Positions 3,970 through 32,457 of a stretch of DNA of 32,495 bases are shown piece by piece. The stretch's first letter is position 1. Every line of letters starts with the position of its first letter. The notes under the pieces were generated by a model, which was not told the DNA's origin, made no database searches, and was given only the letters and a program-made list of their open reading frames with translations. Made by a program: the position numbers and the translations under genes. The stretch is from contig JAJYRZ010000006.1 in NCBI GenBank assembly GCA_021793835.1, positions 1 to 32,495 of the forward strand. The letters are read 5' to 3'. The stretch is from Actinomycetes bacterium (lineage in GTDB: Bacteria; Actinomycetota; Actinomycetes; Mycobacteriales; Mycobacteriaceae).

Positions 3970-6039
3970 ATGACAGCAGGGGAGAACCGGGCCGCACGGC
4001 GCGCCCGAGAGCGCGGCGCCGGTCGCCGGGCGCGGACCGGCCTGGTCGCCGTCGCCACGGCCGCCAGCATGGGCGTGGCCATGGCCGGCGGCATCGGGGT
4101 GGCGAGCGCCGACTCGCCGCTCAGCGGCCTGGACGGGCTCGGCGGACTCGATGGCATCACCGATCTGCTCGACAACGAGATGATCACTGACTTCATCGAG
4201 ATCTGCGACGACCCGGACGGTTCGACCCCGGTGCCCGAGGACGGCGACGAGGTCTACGCGGTCGTCGACTGCAGCCAGTCGACCGGTACGGGCATCGCCG
4301 TGGTGCTGCCGGAATCGGTGGAGGTGGGTATCGCCGGCGAGAAGATGGATCCCATCTCCATTCCGCTGTACGGCGAGAACAACCTGGTCGAACTGGCCAG
4401 CCGGTTCGAGAATGCGGTTCTGGGAGTGCCAGGAAGCCGAAGCTACAAGTCCTATGCCGAAGTACAGCGTGACGCGGCGCTGCCGGTGGAGATGATCACC
4501 GAAGAATACTGCAGTGGTGTCGTCCTCTTCGGTAGGTGTGTGGGGGGTAGTTGGAAGACCCGCACGTTGGATAAGAACCTCAAAAAGCGTACCGAGGCAC
4601 TGAAGATCGCCGAGTACTTCACCGGCTACCGGTACGACTACTCCGAACCGATCGACCTGCCCGGTCTGGACGATCCGCGCGGCACGGCCACGGTCGCCGG
4701 ACCCGGCATCCAGCTCGCACTCGCGATGGGTGGCGGCAACGCCTATGCCGAGACGGCCCACGAGCTCGGTGCGGCGCTGGCCGGGGCGAGCGGTGGGCGC
4801 GATTCGTCCGCCTACTCCTTCATCGGCCTGGCCAGTGCGCTCAACGCCGACACCGATGAGCTCGAGCTGACCTGGTTCGGTCAGGAACTGAACTTCGACA
4901 AGCTCAAGTCCAACTGGATCGTCGATCTCCTCGGTGGGGACAACGTCAAGCAGCTGGACGAGATCGAGAACCTCGAGATCCCCGCGCTGAAGGAGGTCTC
5001 CTGCTTCGGCATGTACACCACCGCCACCGCGGAGGACCTCGGTGAGTGCACGAACGTCTTCGGCACCTTCGACTACTACAAGGACCTGCGGCCGGCCAAG
5101 GACGGCGAGAGCAGGCAGACCCGGTACGGCCTGACCGATCTGACCTCGCTGTTCTTCGGGCCCGACGCGCTGCTCAAGCAGATCGACGGCTCGGCCGAGG
5201 AGACCCCGTTCCTGGACGGGCTGATGGACGCGCTCACCGATGAGGACGTGCGTCTGAAGTTCGCCAACGACTTCCTGCGGCTGACCCGCGACGTGCGCAG
5301 CGAGGTCGTCATGGTCCCCGAGCTGGACGAAGACGGTGAGCCGGTCCTCGAAGACGGCGAACCGGTGCTGGTCCCCGAGTTGGACGAGGACGGCAACGAG
5401 GTCCTGCGCCAGGTCACCGCGACCTTCCTGACCAGTGACTACGGTCTGGTCGAGCCGGTCGCCATCGACTGGATGGGCTACCGGATGGTGCTGTTCCCGG
5501 CCGTGGAGGTCAACGGCGAGCAGCGGCCCAACCTGCTGTCGCTGCCGCAGATCGAGAAGATCCTCGACGGCGAGACCGACGAAGACGGCGAGGACGAGGA
5601 CGGCCAGGGCAGCACCTCGCGCAGCTCCGGCCTGGGCGGCCTGCTGCCCACGGTGAGCCTGGTGTCGGTGCAGAACCCGTTCGGGCTCGGCACCCTGACC
5701 CTGGACAAGCCCTTCGATCTCAAGCACACCTGGGACGAGTTCCGGAAGACCGTCACCATCGGTGACGACCTCGAGCAGGCCGGTGACCTGATCGGCGACC
5801 TGACCGGATCGTCCGAGACCGAGGAGCCGGATGATCCCGAGGTGCCTGAGACGCAGAAGAAGGCGAGCTCGAGCACCGAGGGCGACGACGACACCGGCAG
5901 CACGGGTGAGAACGCGTCCAAGGGCGGCGACGACGACAGCGAGTCCGACAAGGGCTCCGACGATTCGTCCGAGAAGAGCACCACGCCCGAGGATCAGGAA
6001 CCTGAGGACGACGAGTCCGACGAGGACGAGGCCGCGTAA
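3970..6039 (+). CDS. secreted/cell-envelope protein with acidic low-complexity C-terminus
   Basis: 689 aa; twin-Arg rich N-terminus then hydrophobic 'GLVAVATAASMGVAMAGGIGVASA' signal-like segment; C-terminal D/E/S-rich tail; no recognised catalytic domain. Confidence 0.75.
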   Translation: MTAGENRAARRARERGAGRRARTGLVAVATAASMGVAMAGGIGVASADSPLSGLDGLGGLDGITDLLDNEMITDFIEICDDPDGSTPVPEDGDEVYAVVDCSQSTGTGIAVVLPESVEVGIAGEKMDPISIPLYGENNLVELASRFENAVLGVPGSRSYKSYAEVQRDAALPVEMITEEYCSGVVLFGRCVGGSWKTRTLDKNLKKRTEALKIAEYFTGYRYDYSEPIDLPGLDDPRGTATVAGPGIQLALAMGGGNAYAETAHELGAALAGASGGRDSSAYSFIGLASALNADTDELELTWFGQELNFDKLKSNWIVDLLGGDNVKQLDEIENLEIPALKEVSCFGMYTTATAEDLGECTNVFGTFDYYKDLRPAKDGESRQTRYGLTDLTSLFFGPDALLKQIDGSAEETPFLDGLMDALTDEDVRLKFANDFLRLTRDVRSEVVMVPELDEDGEPVLEDGEPVLVPELDEDGNEVLRQVTATFLTSDYGLVEPVAIDWMGYRMVLFPAVEVNGEQRPNLLSLPQIEKILDGETDEDGEDEDGQGSTSRSSGLGGLLPTVSLVSVQNPFGLGTLTLDKPFDLKHTWDEFRKTVTIGDDLEQAGDLIGDLTGSSETEEPDDPEVPETQKKASSSTEGDDDTGSTGENASKGGDDDSESDKGSDDSSEKSTTPEDQEPEDDESDEDEAA

Positions 6040-8212: not shown

Positions 8213-9397
8213 TCAGGCGGTGGCGGTGCCGCCGACCGGATCGGCGGTGAGCGTGGTCTGCGCCGAGACCGCGATGCCGTGGGTGGTCAGCGCGTCGATG
8301 ACCGCGCCCGTGCGCTGCTCGTCGTCGGAGGGGCCGAACAGCAGTCGCGCGGACTGCACACCCAGGTCCGCCAGGATGCGGGCGGCGACCGGCAGATCGT
8401 CGGCCGACGGGTGCCGCAGGTAGACCAGCACCCCGCGCTCGGCGTGATCGATCTCCTCGAGCCCGGCACCCAGATCACGGCCGCACCCGCACTGCAGGGA
8501 CCGGAAGGTGTCGCCCTCGGCGCACTCGGAGTGGATGCGCACCGGCACCTCGGTGCCGGCCGGATCCCCGGAGACCAGGGCCACGTGCTCGGCCCCGCCG
8601 ACCACGGCGGTGTAGCCGTGGGCGCGGAACACCCCGTGCGAGGTGGGCACGCGGGCGGCCGGGCCGCGCTCGACCAGGTGGTCGTTGTGCCGGCGCCAGG
8701 CGATCAGGTCGGCGATGGTGATGATCGCCAGCTCGTGCTCGGCGGCGAAGCGGCGCAGCTCGTCGGTGCGCGCCATCACCAGCGGATCGTCCTCGCTGAC
8801 GATCTCGCAGATCACCCCGGCCGGGCGCAGACCGGCCAGCCGGGCAAGGTCGACCGCGGCCTCGGTGTGCCCGTCGCGCTCGAGCACCCCGCCGTCGCGG
8901 GCCCGCAGCGGCACCACATGCCCGGGGCGGGTGAAGTCGGCGGGGCGGGTGCGCGGATCGGCGAGCAGCCGGCAGGTGCGTGCCCGGTCGGCGGCCGAGA
9001 TGCCGGTCGTGCCGCCCTCGCGGGCGTCGACGGTGACGGTGTAGGCGGTGCCGTGCTTGTCCTGGTTCTCGCTCGCCATCGGCGGCAGGCCCAGGCGGTC
9101 GCATTCGGCGCCGGTCAGCGGCGCACACACGAAACCGGAACTGTGCCGGACGAGGAAGGCCATCAGTTCGGGGGTGGCCTTCTCGGCGGCGAAGATCAGA
9201 TCGCCCTCGTTCTCCCGGTCCTCGTCGTCGAGCACCACGACCATGCGTCCGGCCGCGATCTCGGCCAGAGCGGTGTCGATGGAGTCGAAACCCGCGGTGG
9301 GTTCGACGGGCACGGCGGCGACGACCGGGCCGGTGGCCGGCACATCGTCGGCCTCGACCAGCACCGGTCCGACCAGACCCTCATGCGTGGATGTCAT
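8213..9397 (-). CDS. ribBA: bifunctional 3,4-dihydroxy-2-butanone-4-phosphate synthase / GTP cyclohydrolase II
   Basis: '[40 protein letters not shown]' (RibB) and '[21 protein letters not shown]' (RibA zinc site); preceded by an FMN riboswitch. Confidence 0.95.
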
Positions 9398-9478
9398 CTT
9401 CGCCCCACTTCCTCGCGCATTTCAAACGGCGCTCGGGGACGGGCGGCGCGCGGCGGCTTCCGATACCGCAGCGGTGTC

Positions 9479-9629
9479 GTTCTCTTTCATCCGGACTGTG
9501 ACCGTCGGCTCCGGGATCGCACCGGAATCTGCTTGTCCCCTCCGAAAAGTCGGAGGGCGCTCGCGGGCTCATGCGACCCGTAAGGGCCGCCATCACCGCC
9601 GGTGGGGAATCGCACCCCGCCCCGAGAAC
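9479..9629 (-). ncRNA. FMN riboswitch (RFN element) upstream of ribBA
   Basis: Minus strand reads GTTCTCGGGGCGGGGTGCGATTCCCCACCGGCGGT...GAGCCCGCGAGCGCCCTCCGACTTTTCGGAGGGGACAAGCAGATTCCGGTGCGATCCCGGAGCCGACGGTCACAGTCCGGATGAAAGAGAAC, matching the RFN consensus closely. Confidence 0.97.
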
Positions 9630-9733
9630 TTCCTGTCATCGACGGTACCACGCAGTCGGCAGACGACTCCGCCGGCTTCCGGGCGACGGAAACCGGCAGG
9701 TCATCCCCGGCGCTCACGGCCGGGCGGGGCGGA

Positions 9734-23875: not shown

Positions 23876-24643
23876 GTGAGCGTGTTCGACGACGAGATCG
23901 CACGGCTGTATGTCCAAGACGGGGTCTCCGACGACCGGATCGACGCCGAGGCCGCACGTTACGGCCCGCTCGCCGAGGACCTACGGGCGCTGATCGATCT
24001 GACCATCCGCTCGCGCGCCGGCGACGACGAGGTCGCAAAGGTGCGCGCGCTGCTCGATCAGGCCCGGAAGGTGCTGGCCGCCGACGCCGAGGACCACCCG
24101 TTCGGGGTGCGCTGGGGCGCCTCGGGGCGGCGCCGCTCCTGGGGCAACGCCGCGGTGGGCCTGCGCAACGCCATCGCCCCGCCCCTGCACATCGAGCACG
24201 ACGAGACCGGCCGGGTGTGGGCCGACTTCTTCCTGCACGCCGGCTACGAGGGCCCGGCCGGGATGACCCACGGCGGGGTGTCCGCGCTGATCCTCGATCA
24301 GATGCTCGGCTCGTGCGCCCAGCTCGGCGGCCATCCGGGCATGACCGGCACCCTGTCGCTGCGCTACCGCCGCCCCGCCCCGCTGGGCCGGCTGCGCGCC
24401 GAGGCGAGGATCGACCGCACCGAAGGGGTCAAGACCTTCGTCGTCGGCACCATCGAAAGCGACGGCCAGGTGTGCGTGGAGGCCGAGGGCGTGTTCATCC
24501 TGCCGCGCTGGGCGCGCGGTACCGAACCCGATGCGCCGACCACCCCTGGCGGGGTGGACGGCACGGACGTGTGGCCGTCGGCCCGCGACGAGGAGACCAT
24601 CGACACCGCCGCCACGCGGCAGGGAGGACCCGACGATGACTGA
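23876..24643 (+). CDS. PaaI/hotdog-fold thioesterase
   Basis: 255 aa; 'HAGYEGPAGMTHGGVSALILDQMLG' hotdog motif; GTG start at 23876. Confidence 0.85.
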   Translation: MSVFDDEIARLYVQDGVSDDRIDAEAARYGPLAEDLRALIDLTIRSRAGDDEVAKVRALLDQARKVLAADAEDHPFGVRWGASGRRRSWGNAAVGLRNAIAPPLHIEHDETGRVWADFFLHAGYEGPAGMTHGGVSALILDQMLGSCAQLGGHPGMTGTLSLRYRRPAPLGRLRAEARIDRTEGVKTFVVGTIESDGQVCVEAEGVFILPRWARGTEPDAPTTPGGVDGTDVWPSARDEETIDTAATRQGGPDDD

Positions 24644-25154
24644 CGCAGGTGCAGGACTGCAGGCCCGGCTCGGCGCCGCCGGGGTGACCCCGGTGCTGGA
24701 CGTCGACGGCGGGGCCGTGGCCGCGCTGCCGGTGCCCGCCGGCTGGGTGGACGTCGGCGCGGAGGTGATGCCCGCCGCCCGCACCGTGCTCGCCGCCGTC
24801 GACCGCTCCCGGGCGGGCTGGTCGCCCAACGCGGTGCTGCTCGACCACCGGCTCTCGGGCCCGGTCGACCCGGCCGCGGTGCTGCCCGGCGCGATCGTCG
24901 ACGCCCGCGCCATGCCCGGCTGGACCACCGAGATCGACCGGATCGACCAGACTCCGGCCGGTGAGCGCGCGCTGGTGCGCGGCACCTACGAGGCGGAGGG
25001 CTTCCTCGCCCGGGTCACCCTCGCCCTGGTGATCGCCGCCGACGGTGAGACCGGCGGACAGCGCCTGGTCCAGCTCACGGTCACCGTGCCCGCGGACGCC
25101 GACGACATGCTCGACGCGGTCGACGAGATGGTCGACGGACTGCGCGTGGACTGA
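24636..25154 (+). CDS. LpqN/LpqT-like domain protein without signal peptide
   Basis: 172 aa; 'LPVPAGWVDVGAEV', 'SPNAVLLDHRLSGPVDPAAVLPGAIVDARAMPGW', 'GTYEAEGFLARVTLALVI' pattern; overlaps preceding stop (ATGACTGA). Confidence 0.6.
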   Translation: MTDAGAGLQARLGAAGVTPVLDVDGGAVAALPVPAGWVDVGAEVMPAARTVLAAVDRSRAGWSPNAVLLDHRLSGPVDPAAVLPGAIVDARAMPGWTTEIDRIDQTPAGERALVRGTYEAEGFLARVTLALVIAADGETGGQRLVQLTVTVPADADDMLDAVDEMVDGLRVD

Positions 25155-25247
25155 CGGCGTCCGCGCCTTCTCGTGTCGCCGCGGACGGCGGGCTGTGCCA
25201 GGCTCACCGGCGGCATCGGACGATATGAGGAGAGGATCACAGTACGT

Positions 25248-26054
25248 ATGAAACGCCTCTGGACAGGTGCGGCGATTGGAGCGGCCGGATTGGCGCTGGC
25301 CGGATGTGGATCCTCCGCGAGCCCGGGAGGGTGGACAGAGACCACCGGGAACGATCATTCTGCCTCCTCGCTGACCGATCAGGCTGCGATAAACGAATCG
25401 ATCGCCGATGCGTTGTCCGGTGGGGATCCCGTCGAGTGCGAGTACCGCGAGAAGGAACTCGCTGGCACATTCCAACTCGGGCCTGGTGACGTTTTCCGGA
25501 TGGACCTCGATCAAGGGCTGAGCACGGTCTATCAGGACTCCGCCGTGCAGGTGTGGACCCGGCAAGACGGAGCCGGTCTCGTTCTGAGCCCCGGGTTCGC
25601 TTTGGAGTTGGGGATTCCCGACATGACTACGCCCGAAGGCATTGAAAGCGAAGGCCTGGAGACCGACCGGTGCCGGCGTCTGGCCGCAGACGAAGCACCG
25701 GATAGCCCCCCGTCTGAGATTCGCTTCACCGCCGTGGAGAGTGAAGGCGATCTGATGACCTGGCTAGCAGACTCGTATGACGACCAGAGTTCGTCGGCGA
25801 TGCTCGATCTGATGATCGACGACGACGCATCTGAGCAGGGGCAGGGGCTGTTCTATCTCGGCCTGGGCACGCTTATGACACTGCCCGAGGCAGAGATTCA
25901 GCGTTACGGCGCGCTGAGCGAAAGTGAGCAGGAACGCTACTGGATGGAACGCAATGCCGGGATGACACCACGTCAGCAGCGTGCCAACATCGACGAGGCG
26001 CTGAACCGACTGCGGCCCGAACACCGACGGTTGGCCGAGCAGGTGGTGGACTAA
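25248..26054 (+). CDS. lipoprotein paralog 1 (long form)
   Basis: Lipobox 'LALAGCGSS'; core 'DPVECEYREKELAGTFQLGPGDVFRMD'; C-terminal 'IDEALNRLRPEHRRLAEQVV'. Confidence 0.85.
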   Translation: MKRLWTGAAIGAAGLALAGCGSSASPGGWTETTGNDHSASSLTDQAAINESIADALSGGDPVECEYREKELAGTFQLGPGDVFRMDLDQGLSTVYQDSAVQVWTRQDGAGLVLSPGFALELGIPDMTTPEGIESEGLETDRCRRLAADEAPDSPPSEIRFTAVESEGDLMTWLADSYDDQSSSAMLDLMIDDDASEQGQGLFYLGLGTLMTLPEAEIQRYGALSESEQERYWMERNAGMTPRQQRANIDEALNRLRPEHRRLAEQVVD

Positions 26055-26166
26055 GTGATCTTGGCCGGGGCACACGGCTCCGCCGCCGCACCCCACCCGC
26101 CCGTGTCGCCGCGGCCGGCGTGCCGTGCCAGGCTCAGCGGCGTCGGCGAGAAGACGGGGGAGCGCG

Positions 26167-26934
26167 GTGCGGATGCGGCGTGGGTGGGCGGCGGCTGCGG
26201 CGACGGCCGTGCTGGTACTGGCCGGATGTGGATCCGGCTCCGGTGAGGTTCCCGCGGCGGACCGGGCGGCGATCGACGCGATGGTCGACGGCGCGCTGGA
26301 CGGCGGGGACTCGGTCGAGTGCCGGTACGAAGACCAGGACCGCACCGGCACCTACATCATCGGCCCGGGCCGGACGCTGCGGGCGAATCTGGATTCGGAC
26401 GTCGGGGTGTGGCAGCGCGAAGACGAGTACCTGATCTGGGACCGCAGGGACGAGACCGGGGTCCGGTTCGGACCGGAGATGGTCGCCCAGTGGGAGATGG
26501 TCGACCTGAGCGGGGCCGACGCCGTCCGGCACGACGGTGAGCTCGGTCCGTGCCGGCCGTTCCACGGCGACCGGACGGATCGGCGGCCGCCCATAAGCGT
26601 CGACCTGACCGACATCGGCTGGGACGGGGAACTGTCCGAGTGGCTGGCCGGCGTCTATGACGATGAGCGCGGCTCCGCACTGTTCGATGTGCTGGTCCCC
26701 GCCCCCCGGAGCCCGGAGGATGCGGGGTTCTACATCTCACTCGGCATGCTGCTGGACCAGCCCGAGGAGGCGGTCGAGGCCGACGGTGACGTAGAGACTT
26801 CTCTTCAGGCCCGGGCGGAGCAGGGGGGCCTGGAGGCGCTGACCGAGGCCGAGCAAAGCGCATACATCGACGAGGTGATCGGCCGCCTGCGACCCGAACA
26901 CCGCCGCGCGGTCGAAGAGATCCTGGCGGACTGA
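26167..26934 (+). CDS. lipoprotein paralog 2 (long form)
   Basis: GTG start; lipobox 'LVLAGCGSG'; core 'DSVECRYEDQDRTGTYIIGPGRTLRANL'; C-terminal 'IDEVIGRLRPEHRRAVEEIL'. Confidence 0.85.
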   Translation: MRMRRGWAAAAATAVLVLAGCGSGSGEVPAADRAAIDAMVDGALDGGDSVECRYEDQDRTGTYIIGPGRTLRANLDSDVGVWQREDEYLIWDRRDETGVRFGPEMVAQWEMVDLSGADAVRHDGELGPCRPFHGDRTDRRPPISVDLTDIGWDGELSEWLAGVYDDERGSALFDVLVPAPRSPEDAGFYISLGMLLDQPEEAVEADGDVETSLQARAEQGGLEALTEAEQSAYIDEVIGRLRPEHRRAVEEILAD

Positions 26935-27066
26935 GCCGGTCGCCGGCCGCGGCACCGCGTCCGTTTTCCGTACCCGCACGCTTTTCCGTGCCGTATCGCG
27001 CGGGTCGGTGGGGCCGAGTGCGTCGACCGTCGCCCGGCGCGGCGCACGGCCGATAGCGTCGAACCC

Positions 27067-28305
27067 ATGGATGCAGTGACAACGTGGGACGTCGTGGTGG
27101 TCGGCGGGGGTTTCGCCGGGGTGGCGGTGGCCGATCGCCTCGGTAAAGCCGGGGTGTCGGTACTGCTGGTCGACCGGGTCGACTATCACCAGTTCAAGCC
27201 GCTGAACTATCAGGTCGCCACCGCTGAACTCGGCGCGGCCGAGGTGGGCCGGCCCCTGCGGGAGATCTTCCGGCGCCGCCGCAGCGTGCAGGTCGCGGTC
27301 GACAAGGCGACCGCGGTCGATGCGGCCACGCGCACCGTCACCCTCGCCTCCGGGGCCCGGTGCGCCGGCCGGGTGCTGGTGGTGGCCACCGGGGCGGAGG
27401 CGAACTTCTTCGGCACCCCCGGCGCCGAACACGCCTTCCCGATGTACACGCTCGCCGACGCGGTGCGGCTGCGCGACCGCATGCGCACGGTGCTGGACCG
27501 GGCCGACCGTCCCGGCCGGCCGCCCGCGGAGCTCAGCGTGGTGGTCGTCGGCGGCGGCCCGACCGGGGTGGAGACCGCCGGCGCGATCGCCGACAACCTG
27601 AACTCGGTCATCGCGCGCACCTACCGGGCCGGGGTCGCCGAGGCGGCGACCGTGCACCTGGCCGACCACGGCACCGAACTGCTCAAACCCTTCTCCGAGA
27701 CCTCGCACCGCTATGCGCGCACCGCCCTGGAATCCGCCGGGGTGCGGCTGCACATGGGGGTGGCCGTGGCCGAGATCGCCGCCGACCGGGTGCGTCTGAG
27801 CGACGACTCGGTGCTGCCGGCCGATGTCACCGTGTGGGCGGGCGGTCTGCAGGGCGGCGACCTGCTCACCGATTCGGGGCTGGAGATCGGCCGGGGCGGA
27901 CGGGTGGCCGTGGCCGACACCCTCGAGGTGCCCGGCCATCCCGGGGTCTACGTGCTCGGCGACCTGGCCGCGATCCCCGACGGCACGGGCGGTGTGCTGC
28001 CGCAGCTCGGTTCGGTGGCCCAGCAGTCCGGGGACTGGGCGGCGAAGAACATCCTCGCCGATCTGCGCGGCGGCGCCCGCACCCCGTTCGTCTACCGTGA
28101 CAAGGGCGTGATGGCGATGATCGGCCGCGGTGCCGCGGTCGCCGAGATCGGTGCCTCGCGCAGACAGCTCACCGGGCGCCTGGCCTTCCTGGCCTGGCTC
28201 GGTGTCCACCTGGCGCTGCTGTCGGGCACGCGGGAGAAGATCTCCGCGGCCGCCACCTGGCTGGTGGATTACGGGGTGCGGCTGCGCACTCGCCGCAGCC
28301 GCTAG
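27067..28305 (+). CDS. NAD(P)/FAD-dependent oxidoreductase, type II NADH dehydrogenase-like
   Basis: 'DVVVVGGGFAGVAVADRLGKAGVSVLLVDRVDYHQFKPLNYQVATAEL', 'VVVVGGGPTGVETAGAIAD', 'YVLGDLAAIPDGTGGVLPQLGSVAQQSG'. Confidence 0.92.
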   Translation: MDAVTTWDVVVVGGGFAGVAVADRLGKAGVSVLLVDRVDYHQFKPLNYQVATAELGAAEVGRPLREIFRRRRSVQVAVDKATAVDAATRTVTLASGARCAGRVLVVATGAEANFFGTPGAEHAFPMYTLADAVRLRDRMRTVLDRADRPGRPPAELSVVVVGGGPTGVETAGAIADNLNSVIARTYRAGVAEAATVHLADHGTELLKPFSETSHRYARTALESAGVRLHMGVAVAEIAADRVRLSDDSVLPADVTVWAGGLQGGDLLTDSGLEIGRGGRVAVADTLEVPGHPGVYVLGDLAAIPDGTGGVLPQLGSVAQQSGDWAAKNILADLRGGARTPFVYRDKGVMAMIGRGAAVAEIGASRRQLTGRLAFLAWLGVHLALLSGTREKISAAATWLVDYGVRLRTRRSR

Positions 28306-28361
28306 ACCGGAACCACCGTCGCCGCCCGTCGCCCGCTCACTCCGAGGAGAACCCCGCACCG

Positions 28362-29195
28362 ATGACCGCACACCCGCCGATCCCCGCCGACCTGGCCCGC
28401 TCCTGGATCCTGGTCCCGCCCATGCACCGTCCGCAGCTCGAGGCCGCCCATGCCTCCGGCGCCGACGTGGTGGTCTACGACCTGGAGGACGGCACCGAGG
28501 CCGACAACAAGAAGACGGCGCGGGCGATCGTCGCCGAGCGGCTGCCCCAGCAGCCCGGCTGGGTGCGGGTCAACCCCGCCGACACCCCCTTCTGGGTCGA
28601 GGACCTGGCGCGGCTGCGCAACTGCGACGGACTGGCCGGTGTGGTGCTGGCCGAGACGGTGTCGGCGGCCGAGATCGACCGCACCGCGGCCGCCCTGGAC
28701 CACCGGGTACCGGTGATCCCGCTGATCGAGTCCGCGGCCGGGCTCGAGGCGATCGCACAGATCGTGCGGGCCCGCGCGACGCTGCGGGTGGCCTTCGGGG
28801 TCAACGACTTCCGCCGTGACACCGGCATCGGCGGCGGGGCACTGGCCCTGGCCTATGTGCGGTCCCAGTTGGTGCTGGCCAGCCACGCCGCCGGCATCGC
28901 CGCCCCCATCGACGGGCCGGCCCCGGCCGAGGCGGCAGGTGACGATCTGGCCGCGGCGGTGACGCTGACCGGGGAGATGGGCATGACCGGCAAGCTCGCC
29001 GTGCACGCCGAACAGGTCGCCGCGATCAACACCCACCTGAGCCCCGACGCCCACGACGTCGCGGCGGCCAAGGAACTCATCGCCCGTCTCGGCGAGGGCG
29101 GCCACAACATCACCGACGGCTCGGATCTGCCGCGTCTGGCCCGGGCCAAGACCCTGCTCGAGCACGCCCACCGCTTCGGCGTCGACGGGGCCTGA
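28362..29195 (+). CDS. HpcH/HpaI aldolase/citrate lyase family protein (CitE-like)
   Basis: 'SWILVPPMHRPQLEAAHASGADVVVYDLEDGTEADNKKTAR', 'VIPLIESAAGLEAI', 'GVNDFRRDTG', 'GKLAVHAEQVAAIN'. Confidence 0.9.
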   Translation: MTAHPPIPADLARSWILVPPMHRPQLEAAHASGADVVVYDLEDGTEADNKKTARAIVAERLPQQPGWVRVNPADTPFWVEDLARLRNCDGLAGVVLAETVSAAEIDRTAAALDHRVPVIPLIESAAGLEAIAQIVRARATLRVAFGVNDFRRDTGIGGGALALAYVRSQLVLASHAAGIAAPIDGPAPAEAAGDDLAAAVTLTGEMGMTGKLAVHAEQVAAINTHLSPDAHDVAAAKELIARLGEGGHNITDGSDLPRLARAKTLLEHAHRFGVDGA

Positions 29196-29402
29196 CCGCC
29201 GCGGGCCCGCTGCTTCGTACCGTCCCGCGCAGGGGCCCGCACCGGGACCCGACCGGACCGTATGCGTGTCGGACATCACACGATGGTGTGCGGCGTGGCG
29301 GGAGCCGTCTTGGGCCCCGGGTGCATCTGATGGTGGGCGACACGGCGGCGTGGGGGCTTTCGCGCCGCGACTTCTCCTGACGCGAAGGGGTTCTACAAGA
29401 CG

Positions 29403-29945
29403 ATGAAGGACATCAAGCCGTGGATGGCCGTCGGTGCGCTGGTCGCGGCCGGCGGGCTGCTGGTCGCCTGCGGGAGCTCGGGCGGGATGACGGACGCCAC
29501 CTCCGATCCGGAGGAGATGGCGGAGCTGGTCGAGCAGGGCCTGGCCGGTGAGGAGACGGTCACGTGCGTGGTCAGCGGGACCGACGAGGGCACGGTCTAC
29601 CTCGCCTCCGAGGAGCAGTTCCGCTTCGACGGCGAGGTCGACGGGGAGTCGCCGTCGATGGTCTCCACCGGTGACGAGGTGTTCATCTGGGTCGACGGCG
29701 AGGACACCGGGGCCAGCCTCTCGGGCGCCGAGGTGCCGCTGTTCCAGGCGATGATGGTCGACGAGATCTTCGGTGAGCTGAGCGCCTCGGACGCCGGCGA
29801 CATCGACGAGTGCGGTGTCTACACCGGCGGCGACGGGGTGTTCTCCAAGCCCGACAAGGTCGATTTTCTGACCATCGAGTCCGATGCGGACTTCGCCGAG
29901 CTCGAGGACTCGGCGCCCAGGCTGGTCGATCTGATGTTCGACTGA
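29403..29945 (+). CDS. lipoprotein paralog 3 (short form)
   Basis: Lipobox 'LLVACGSS'; 'ETVTCVVSGTDEGTVYLASEEQFRFD...DEVFIWVDGEDTG...DECGVYTGGDGVFSKPDKVDFLTIESDADFAELE'. Confidence 0.88.
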   Translation: MKDIKPWMAVGALVAAGGLLVACGSSGGMTDATSDPEEMAELVEQGLAGEETVTCVVSGTDEGTVYLASEEQFRFDGEVDGESPSMVSTGDEVFIWVDGEDTGASLSGAEVPLFQAMMVDEIFGELSASDAGDIDECGVYTGGDGVFSKPDKVDFLTIESDADFAELEDSAPRLVDLMFD

Positions 29946-29952
29946 CCGGCCG

Positions 29953-29978
29953 CCGGCTCCCCCGTGTGGGGGAGCCGG
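29953..29978 (+). terminator. hairpin after lipoprotein paralog 3
   Basis: Perfect 11-bp inverted repeat ccggctccccc / gggggagccgg, 4-nt loop. Confidence 0.7.
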
Positions 29979-30115
29979 TGAACAGATGCGCACGGGCCGG
30001 GGCGGTCGGTGCCGGTGGTATGACCGGTATCGGCCGGCCCCGGCCCGCTTGTGTGGAGAAGGTGCGCGCCCGGGGGGATGATGACGCGGTGGGATTCGAT
30101 GTGAAGGGATCAGCG

Positions 30116-30742
30116 GTGCGCAAGGCCGGGTCGTGGACGGGGGTCGGAGTGATGCTTCTGGCAGCGGCCGTGCTCGCCGCTTGCGGCTCGGGAGACGGAG
30201 CCGCGGGCGGGCAGGCGTCACCCGGGCCCGCCCGGCCCGGTTCGCCGGGCCTGGGCGGTGACCGGCCGACGACGACCACGGCCGCGCCGGTCACCGCCAC
30301 CGAGTCGGCCGAGATGTGGGCGCTGATCGAGCAGGGCCTGTCGGGCGAGGAGACGATCACGTGCGTGGTCAGCGGGGATGACGGCGCCGGCCGGTTCTAC
30401 CTGGCCTCGGACCGGATGTTCCGATTCGACCTCACCGGCGGTAGCGACATCCCCTCGGTCGTGTCCACCGGAACGGACGTGTTCGTCTGGGTCGAGGGCG
30501 AGGACACCGGGATCGGCATTCCGCGGGCCGAGGTGCAGATGTTCCAGGACACGATGATCGAAGAGATCTTCGGTGAGCTGAGCGCCTCGGACACCGGCGA
30601 GATCGACGAGTGCCGGACCTACACCGGGGTCGGTGTGTTCGCACCGCCCCGCGATGTGGGCTTCGTGACCATCGAGTCCGAGGCGGACTTCGCCGAACTG
30701 GAGGAGTCGGCGCCGAACCTGGTCGATCTGATGTTCAGCTGA
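30116..30742 (+). CDS. lipoprotein paralog 4 (short form)
   Basis: GTG start; lipobox 'VLAACGSG'; 'ETITCVVSGDDGAGRFYLASDRMFRFD...DECRTYTGVGVFAPPRDVGFVTIESEADFAELE'. Confidence 0.88.
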   Translation: MRKAGSWTGVGVMLLAAAVLAACGSGDGAAGGQASPGPARPGSPGLGGDRPTTTTAAPVTATESAEMWALIEQGLSGEETITCVVSGDDGAGRFYLASDRMFRFDLTGGSDIPSVVSTGTDVFVWVEGEDTGIGIPRAEVQMFQDTMIEEIFGELSASDTGEIDECRTYTGVGVFAPPRDVGFVTIESEADFAELEESAPNLVDLMFS

Positions 30743-30841
30743 TCGGTCGGGCCCGCGATGGCCGGACACGATCCGCATTCGTCGACTCCGGCTCGGCCGG
30801 GCCGAGACCGGGACGTGGTGATCGAGAGAAAGGGGTATGTG

Positions 30842-31387
30842 GTGGTGACGCGGAAGACGGTGATCGGTGTCGCGGCAGGGATGGCAGCCGGTGCTCTGCT
30901 GGTCGCGTGCGGTTCATCGAGCGAGATGGTGGATGTGGCCACCGATGAGGCGGGGATGCGGGCGCTGATCGAGCAAGGCCTGGCCGGTGAAGAGACGATC
31001 ATGTGCGTCGGCGGCGACGGCGAGGTCGACGGCGAGTTCTACATCGCGGCGCAGGACCGGTTCCGCTTCGACATCGACGAGAACGACTACGCCCCGTCGG
31101 TGCTGTCCGCCGACGACCGGGAGTACGTGTGGGTCCCCGGCGAAGACACCGGGGTCACGACCTCCGGTGCGGGGCGCGAGATGTTCGAGTGGCTCACGGC
31201 CGACCACAAGATCGTGGACCTGGCCTCCTCGGAACTGGACGTGATGGACGAGTGCGGGGTCTACACCGGTGGTGACGAGGTGTTCCAGGCTCCCGACGAG
31301 ATCGACTTCGTCACGGTGGACGCGAGCGCCGACGTGGTCGAGTTGCGGGAATCGTCGCCGCGACTGGTCGAGCTGCTGTTCGGTTAG
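30842..31387 (+). CDS. lipoprotein paralog 5 (short form)
   Basis: One of three consecutive GTG codons; lipobox 'LLVACGSS'; 'ETIMCVGGDGEVDGEFYIAAQDRFRFD...DECGVYTGGDEVFQAPDEIDFVTVDASADVVELR'. Confidence 0.86.
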   Translation: MVTRKTVIGVAAGMAAGALLVACGSSSEMVDVATDEAGMRALIEQGLAGEETIMCVGGDGEVDGEFYIAAQDRFRFDIDENDYAPSVLSADDREYVWVPGEDTGVTTSGAGREMFEWLTADHKIVDLASSELDVMDECGVYTGGDEVFQAPDEIDFVTVDASADVVELRESSPRLVELLFG

Positions 31388-31527
31388 GAACCCGCGCCGG
31401 GGCGGGCTCCGGCCGGGTCGCAGGCGTGGCGGGGCCGTCCCCGCAGCAGGTCACCGCTCTGCGCTTTCGCCGCGTCCCGGTTTCGGGTAGGCCTGGGAGG
31501 CTGCCTATGACGACGAGGAGGAGATCT

Positions 31528-32457
31528 GTGGCGAAGACGATGAAACCGTGGTGGATGCTCGGATCGGTGGTGACCGCCGGCGTGTTGCTGGTCGGTTGCG
31601 GGTCCAGCGACGGGGGAGACTCCGGTGACGACGACACTGCCGCATCGGCCGAGGAACTGATGAACGGTCAGGATCCGGAGCCGGAGGGCGAGTTCGCCGA
31701 CATCATCGCCCAGGGCCTGGACGGCGACGAGGTCGTCGAGTGCGTGGGGGAGGACCCCGGCGCATCGACCATCGCGCACATCGACGGTGAGGACCGCATC
31801 CACTTCGAGACCACCATGGACGACCTGACCGCCTCGACCCTGATCGACGGCGACCAGGTGCACCAGTGGAGCGAGGGCGCCACCGAGGGTCTGACCGCCA
31901 AGGGTGAGCTCGCCGACCAGATCAGCCAGGGCATCGTCATGCAGCTCGGCCAGGCCGGTGCGGTGTTCGACGAGTGCAGCGTCTACGACGGCTCGGACGA
32001 GGTCTTCGACAAGCCCTCCTCGGTCGAGTTCAGCGAGGTGTCCAGCCAGGCCGAGACCCTCGCCTGGTTCGCCCAGCGCTACAAGGACGGCGACGGCGAG
32101 AAGATGCTGCAGGAACAGGCCATGGGCGTGCCGGCTCAGCGGGCGGATCTGCTGATGTCGATCGCCCCGCTGCTGTCGCTCGACGATGACGAGCTGGCCG
32201 AGTTCGCCGAGTTCGACGACGAGGAGATGGCGGAGTACCTGGCCACCCTCGGCGGCGACGACCCGGCCGAGCAGGAGGCCCTGGTCGACCAGGCTTTCGA
32301 CGCTCTGGAGCCGGAGCACCGCGCCGAGCTCGAGGAGTACCTGGCCAGCATGCAGGCCGGCGGCATGGGAGGCATGGAAGGGCTCGAGGGCCTGGAAGGG
32401 CTTGAAGGGCTGGAGGGCCTGGACGGTCAGGGCGGTGCACAGACGCCCGGGAACTGA
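31528..32457 (+). CDS. lipoprotein paralog 6 (long form) with Gly-Leu-Glu repeat tail
   Basis: GTG start with GAGGAG SD; lipobox 'LLVGCGSS'; 'DECSVYDGSDEVFDKPSSVEFSEVSS'; 'LVDQAFDALEPEHRAELEEYL'; (GLE)n C-terminus. Confidence 0.88.
   Translation: MAKTMKPWWMLGSVVTAGVLLVGCGSSDGGDSGDDDTAASAEELMNGQDPEPEGEFADIIAQGLDGDEVVECVGEDPGASTIAHIDGEDRIHFETTMDDLTASTLIDGDQVHQWSEGATEGLTAKGELADQISQGIVMQLGQAGAVFDECSVYDGSDEVFDKPSSVEFSEVSSQAETLAWFAQRYKDGDGEKMLQEQAMGVPAQRADLLMSIAPLLSLDDDELAEFAEFDDEEMAEYLATLGGDDPAEQEALVDQAFDALEPEHRAELEEYLASMQAGGMGGMEGLEGLEGLEGLEGLDGQGGAQTPGN
32371..32424 (+). repeat. 9-nt tandem repeat encoding G-[ML]-[ED] x6
   Basis: ggcatggaa gggctcgag ggcctggaa gggcttgaa gggctggag ggcctggac. Confidence 0.9.

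Follow-up and report, generated by a model that had tools for sequence, protein, structure and literature searches.

The window analyzed here, the entire 32,495-base contig C73 of a Tomitella assembly (2.98 Mb in 270 contigs, 81% complete), contains six neighboring lipoprotein genes on the + strand, Lp1–Lp6, which belong to a real, undescribed, and genus-centered lipoprotein family with a two-cysteine signature and a probable LolA-type fold. Tomitella is a relative of the mycobacteria, and the genome from which the window comes holds nine copies of this family. The six window genes are tandem and near-tandem duplicates within what is otherwise a small Tomitella lipoprotein family.

Each of the six proteins has a basic start, a hydrophobic stretch, and then a lipobox (LAGC, LAGC, LVAC, LAAC, LVAC, and LVGC for Lp1 to Lp6, respectively), as required of a lipoprotein signal peptide, and one common core aligns across all six mature sequences. 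With the signal peptides removed, a profile built from any five cores recovers the sixth, with E values of the order of 1e-14 to 1e-36 (Lp1, 9e-15; Lp2, 1e-14; Lp3, 2e-36; Lp4, 6e-35; Lp5, 5e-34; Lp6, 2e-16) and scores of 54–124 bits, compared to 4–13 bits for the best of 200 shuffles made for each. A profile trained solely on proteins of other Tomitella species also matches all six (E 1e-19 to 2e-4). The six window cores are therefore homologous members of one paralogous family, with a similarity beyond chance. A preliminary description of this DNA had proposed six same-strand lipobox genes that share a core, and this is borne out; no model in Pfam or NCBIfam matches the family. That description had also named an assignment of the six to unrelated or already known families as the outcome that would speak against it; instead, the five-core profile finds the sixth core each time, and no Pfam or NCBIfam family is matched. 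Pairwise core identities do fall to ∼22%, as they might if unrelated lipoproteins had been aligned through their signal peptides, but this explanation is refuted by the leave-one-out tests, from which those peptides were removed, and the two structural models described below share one topology; we attach next to no weight to it.

Over 14 family cores, the invariant residues are a Cys, a Trp, a second Cys, and the Pro of an FxxP motif, and nothing else; one Gly, one Arg, and one Phe are nearly invariant. The motif first described thus stands at these four positions, although the “VF” of its VFxxP element is missing in Lp1 and Lp2. The spacing between the cysteines, described as kept, is so only roughly, at 77–83 residues in Lp1–Lp6 but reaching 93 in relatives. 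Each of the 16 mature proteins that were examined contains exactly three Cys: that of the lipobox and the two of the core. Two builds can be distinguished, with Lp3, Lp4, and Lp5 ending just past the core and Lp1, Lp2, and Lp6 carrying an additional C-terminal extension of ∼90 amino acids. This extension ends in L.PEHR or similar, a feature shared more loosely by the copies on contig C193 (see below), and is predicted to be helical with low confidence (pLDDT 50–67 in the Lp6 model). In Lp6, it is followed by a GLEGLEG tail encoded by an 18-nt repeat.

An AlphaFold model of Lp3, computed from an alignment of the six paralogs, has a mean pLDDT of 82, with values of ∼90 or more across most of the core. 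It begins with a helix and six strands, continues with an 18-residue helix and another two strands, and ends in C-terminal helices. A second run, led by Lp6, gave the identical order of strands and helix with a core pLDDT of ∼90. When the Lp3 model was compared with the Protein Data Bank (PDB) using Foldseek, LolA occupied ranks 1–18 (best E 2.6e-3, probability 0.99, TM 0.33–0.40); for the Lp6 model, LolA, RseB, and LolB accounted for the majority of the top 16 ranks (probability 0.99, best TM by target 0.46–0.47). We consider a predicted LolA/B-type β-clam core likely rather than proven, since no match passes an E value of 0.001. The fold suggested originally, a LolA/LppX-like sheet, is supported to this extent in its LolA half by the shared topology of both models and their best, if marginal, matches to LolA/LolB. 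Its LppX/LprG half is not supported: there is no Pfam match to PF07161 (LppX_LprAFG), the hhalign probability against three PF07161 members is 0.1%, and the LppX and LprG structures lie outside the top 50 fold matches. Searches of viral structures returned nothing, and searches of PDB sequences with the family profiles returned chance matches only (E 0.04 or worse).

Both core cysteines (Cys55 and Cys137 in Lp3) lie in strands of the Lp3 model, the first after the N-terminal helix and the second after the long helix. They likely form a disulfide, giving a disulfide-stapled LolA-type clam, because every mature protein has exactly two Cys besides that of the lipobox.

All five Tomitella genomes contain a match to the core profile. 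No match was found in 246 further genomes from the same taxonomic family (30 other genera) or in 296 others from a phylum-wide sample, in a search that evaluates a restricted set of candidates in each genome and may miss very distant copies. In an order-wide sample of 349 genomes, a single clear distant relative was found, a 195-residue lipoprotein in genome G572, from another Mycobacteriales family (loci L136/L144; E 8e-6 with the core profile; hhalign 95.5%, E 1.5e-8), which shows the C - YxW - C - FxPP pattern again and has only three Cys. Within the sampled genomes, the family is thus almost confined to Tomitella, yet not without relatives. Directly beside the G572 homolog is a second lipoprotein without a Pfam match (L144, 4576–5115, − strand). 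Matches of the full-length alignment in other genera (E 1e-4 to 1e-2) chiefly cover the signal peptide and were discarded, and further order-wide matches (L137–L141, E 0.005–0.05) were set aside. One of these, L137 of genome G710, read on the correct strand, is an actinobacterial LolA/RseB-like secreted protein (family profile E 0.005, hhalign 47%) and, judged by sequence, is possibly a bridge from the family to the LolA superfamily. Plasmids and phages searched by tblastn gave no match and viral contigs none; a scan of genome contigs with Lp3 was likewise empty, and the same scan with a relative matched one Tomitella cavernea locus. We found no paper on these proteins in the literature. As a lead, Patescibacteria may have similar two-cysteine proteins with a YxW motif and a C..W..D.S.FxPP end.

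In each of the other four Tomitella genomes, one or two copies are present, always between mobA and valS, in the ancestral order clpX - fdhD - GNAT - mobA - Lp - valS - folC (neighbors named by sequence recognition and blast between loci). In the window genome, contig C143 carries clpX, fdhD, GNAT, mobA, and then an Lp copy cut at the contig end, and contig C23 opens with the end of this copy followed by valS. The two contigs have 126 identical bases in common, and this overlap inside the Lp gene indicates the same mobA-Lp-valS order. In seven of the other genera examined (L112, L114, L116–L120), mobA immediately precedes valS, leaving no space for a lipoprotein gene. Because all Tomitella carry Lp at this junction and these genera do not, we conclude that the founding gene entered or arose there in the Tomitella stem. 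The extra copies of the window genome are the six in the window and two on contig C193, and none was found at either locus in the other Tomitella genomes. Between the two C193 copies, on the opposite strand, is a DUF6777 lipoprotein (L103, 9200–10621, +). In the gene tree, Lp3 pairs with Lp4, Lp5 and Lp6 join next, and Lp1 pairs with Lp2; its deep forks are weak, and it neither demonstrates nor excludes that the window copies go back to one origin.

Selection was compared by a simple counting method, which inflates ω at very high GC content at third positions, here 86%–94% in most of these genes. Orthologs at the mobA-valS site have ω of 0.16–0.27, between valS (0.10–0.11) and mobA (0.27–0.38), while window paralogs have values of 0.6–1.2 (0.92 for Lp3/Lp4, 0.83, 0.77, 0.62 for Lp1/Lp2, and up to 1.23 for Lp3/Lp6). 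The orthologs are constrained by purifying selection and the window copies are under relaxed or diversifying change, a contrast that stands within one genus and one method. It is consistent with duplication and divergence, and agrees with the expansion and diversification proposed at the outset.

The array forms two blocks, Lp1-2 and Lp3-6, flanking a gene pair for an NDH-2-like oxidoreductase and a CitE-like lyase, an interruption noted from the start; coordinates are collected in the table.

Table. Features of the lipoprotein array, in window coordinates.
Feature	Position	Strand	Description
35-nt element, copy 1	25172-25206	+	Upstream of Lp1; promoter-like (GTGTCG ... CAGGCT)
Lp1	25248-26054	+	Lipoprotein; two-Cys LolA-like core (predicted) and C-terminal extension ending LRPEHR
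35-nt element, copy 2	26102-26136	+	Upstream of Lp2
Lp2	26173-26934	+	Lipoprotein; built like Lp1, 33% identity to Lp1
NDH-2-like FAD oxidoreductase	27067-28305	+	PF07992; NDH2_C below cut-off
HpcH/HpaI aldolase/citrate lyase beta-like (CitE-like)	28362-29195	+	PF03328
Lp3	29403-29945	+	Lipoprotein, core only; AlphaFold model m63c99d28049b
Lp4	~30116-30742	+	Lipoprotein, core only, Pro/Gly/Thr-rich linker; GTG start, possibly at an earlier GTG
Lp5	~30839-31387	+	Lipoprotein, core only; GTG start, precise position uncertain
Lp6	31540-32457	+	Lipoprotein; core, C-terminal extension, and GLEGLEG repeat tail; AlphaFold model m4f8cc4ed533d

The NDH-2-like and CitE-like genes are probably bystanders, since they are also adjacent in Tomitella genome G001 with no lipoprotein there. 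The 35-nt element, a putative promoter, precedes both Lp1 and Lp2, and the duplication therefore carried the upstream region along. No further copy was found elsewhere in the genome with up to three mismatches allowed, and because only Lp1 and Lp2 share this element, there is no regulon signal common to the array. The contig ends 38 bases past Lp6. On the other side, an LpqN-domain protein (24636–25154, +; PF10738, E 6e-21) stops ∼93 bases before Lp1; it has neither lipobox nor signal peptide and appears to be a cytoplasmic form of a known mycobacterial lipoprotein family. Elsewhere, the window contains an AbiEi/AbiEii-type toxin-antitoxin pair at the contig end (63–1729, −; PF13338, PF08843), a very acidic 689-residue protein whose start resembles a signal peptide and which matches nothing in Pfam (3970–6039, +), and an ordinary FMN riboswitch (9475–9633, −; RF00050, 94 bits) that precedes a ribBA-like gene (8213–9397, −).

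The explanation that we place first, with moderate confidence and by analogy, is that these proteins are membrane-anchored and bind or carry a hydrophobic ligand. Judging from its signal sequence, each protein would be exported, cleaved, and lipid-anchored at the lipobox Cys, and would then sit on the outer face of the plasma membrane, either within or beneath the mycolate layer. The core would fold into a β-clam made of a curved antiparallel sheet and a single lid-like helix, the sheet being closed by a disulfide between the Cys of the first core strand and the Cys after the long helix. By comparison with characterized members of the fold, the sheet would bind an acyl chain, lipid, or lipopeptide, which could be presented or passed on in the envelope. 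The founding copy would be that at mobA-valS; the window species has at least eight further copies, divided between two other loci, and the rapid divergence of the window copies would fit specialization on different ligands or partners. We favor such a role because LolA-fold proteins mostly bind lipids or lipoproteins in a curved-sheet cavity (PMC6363788), mycobacterial LprG binds triacylglycerol and transfers it between membranes (PMC4709180), and MucB senses lipids in its cavity (PMC7400510). A more specific version, in which disulfide-stapled LolA-fold lipoproteins, undescribed so far, entered or arose at mobA-valS at the base of Tomitella, reached at least nine copies in one species, and shuttle different envelope lipids where PF07161 is undetected, is offered only tentatively.

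Several observations weigh against a ligand-carrying role. The fold matches are marginal, with none below E 1e-3, TM values of 0.33–0.47, and rmsd of 5–9 Å, and the LolA fold is no guarantee of lipid binding, as the enzyme VioE and the regulator RseB illustrate (PMC6363788). The mature proteins are strongly acidic (calculated pI ∼4), which gives no backing to a role with membrane lipids, and the inflation of ω noted above affects the divergence estimates. No conserved partner transporter, acceptor, or regulator was found beside the family among the genes scanned at the ancestral and the new loci, and the “envelope system” of the preliminary description is not upheld.

Some of the same data could instead be explained by structural or adhesive surface proteins with no ligand role, in which the Cys pair and Trp merely stabilize a small β fold and copy number drifts. 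The acidity, low-complexity linkers, repeat tail, and near-neutral divergence of the window copies would all fit, but purifying selection on the mobA-valS copies, the conserved topology, and a fold class that usually binds ligands make this unlikely. We regard as less probable again a set of divergent surface-anchored immunity or decoy lipoproteins that neutralize secreted toxins of rival strains, modeled on Staphylococcus, where tandem DUF576 lipoproteins (TilA) neutralize the type VII lipase TslA (PMC10730906). Tandem, divergent, lineage-restricted lipoproteins with raised ω do resemble such reported arrays (PMC10730906, PMC9484751); however, no toxin, LXG, or WXG100 domain was found near the window array, the C193 pair, or the ancestral locus among the portion of open reading frames scanned, and the founding copy beside valS is under purifying selection in all species.

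Of these functional alternatives, we rank lowest the possibility that the proteins are RseB/MucB-like sensors of envelope lipids or misplaced lipoproteins, regulating a membrane anti-sigma factor or kinase. Both fold searches returned RseB, lipid sensing by MucB provides a precedent (PMC7400510), and the profile weakly matches an actinobacterial protein, which in turn has weak matches to MucB_RseB and LolA_like. This sequence link loses significance once the 349 genomes are counted, however, the second RseB domain is missing, and no sigma factor, anti-sigma factor, or two-component gene was seen among the scanned neighbors of the copies. Overall, binding or carriage of a hydrophobic ligand by an anchored protein is the most likely function.

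The passage of lipids across the periplasm of mycolate-bearing bacteria is incompletely understood, and its main examples are LprG and LppX. A separate family absent from Pfam, with a likely LolA-type fold and a cysteine pair, provides a small set of paralogs in which ligand specificity could be compared. It is also an example of an envelope gene with a narrow distribution, which appeared at a single, fixed position in the chromosome and later multiplied elsewhere.

Compared with known families, the closest structural counterparts are LolA and LolB (CATH 2.50.20, β-clam), which are the best PDB matches for both models and share with the predicted core a curved antiparallel sheet, a lid helix, and a similar size. 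The Tomitella proteins differ in their putative lipid anchoring (LolA is soluble), in their two invariant Cys, and in the lack of detectable sequence similarity, and no Lol context is seen for them. They probably function much as LolA-fold carriers do, but, with a lipobox and no LolA-type Pfam match, they do not belong to LolA by sequence. LppX, LprG, LprA, and LprF (PF07161) are likewise Mycobacteriales lipoproteins of the fold superfamily predicted here, LprG carrying triacylglycerol, but the Tomitella family has a smaller core and the two-Cys and Trp signature. PF07161 was found in none of the five Tomitella genomes; it is also missing from most of the 13 genomes searched, so that a replacement of LprG cannot be argued. 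RseB and MucB, whose LolA-like domain has a lipid-sensing cavity, appear in both fold searches, and membership was rejected for want of a PF03888 match, a second domain, and a sigma or anti-sigma gene among the scanned neighbors. The LpqN and WKL families of NCBIfam were likewise rejected (∼11 bits against cut-offs of 250 and 105, over the N-terminal part only). TilA/DUF576 of Staphylococcus also forms a variable tandem lipoprotein array, but in a different phylum; the Tomitella proteins have no Pfam match, and no toxin partner was found in the neighbors scanned here. The G572 lipoprotein, also uncharacterized, differs in its locus, in the single copy found, and in a longer insert after the first Cys, and is nevertheless a true distant relative of the Tomitella family, with a lipobox plus exactly two Cys, the YxW motif, and a SIFQPPKDITF end.

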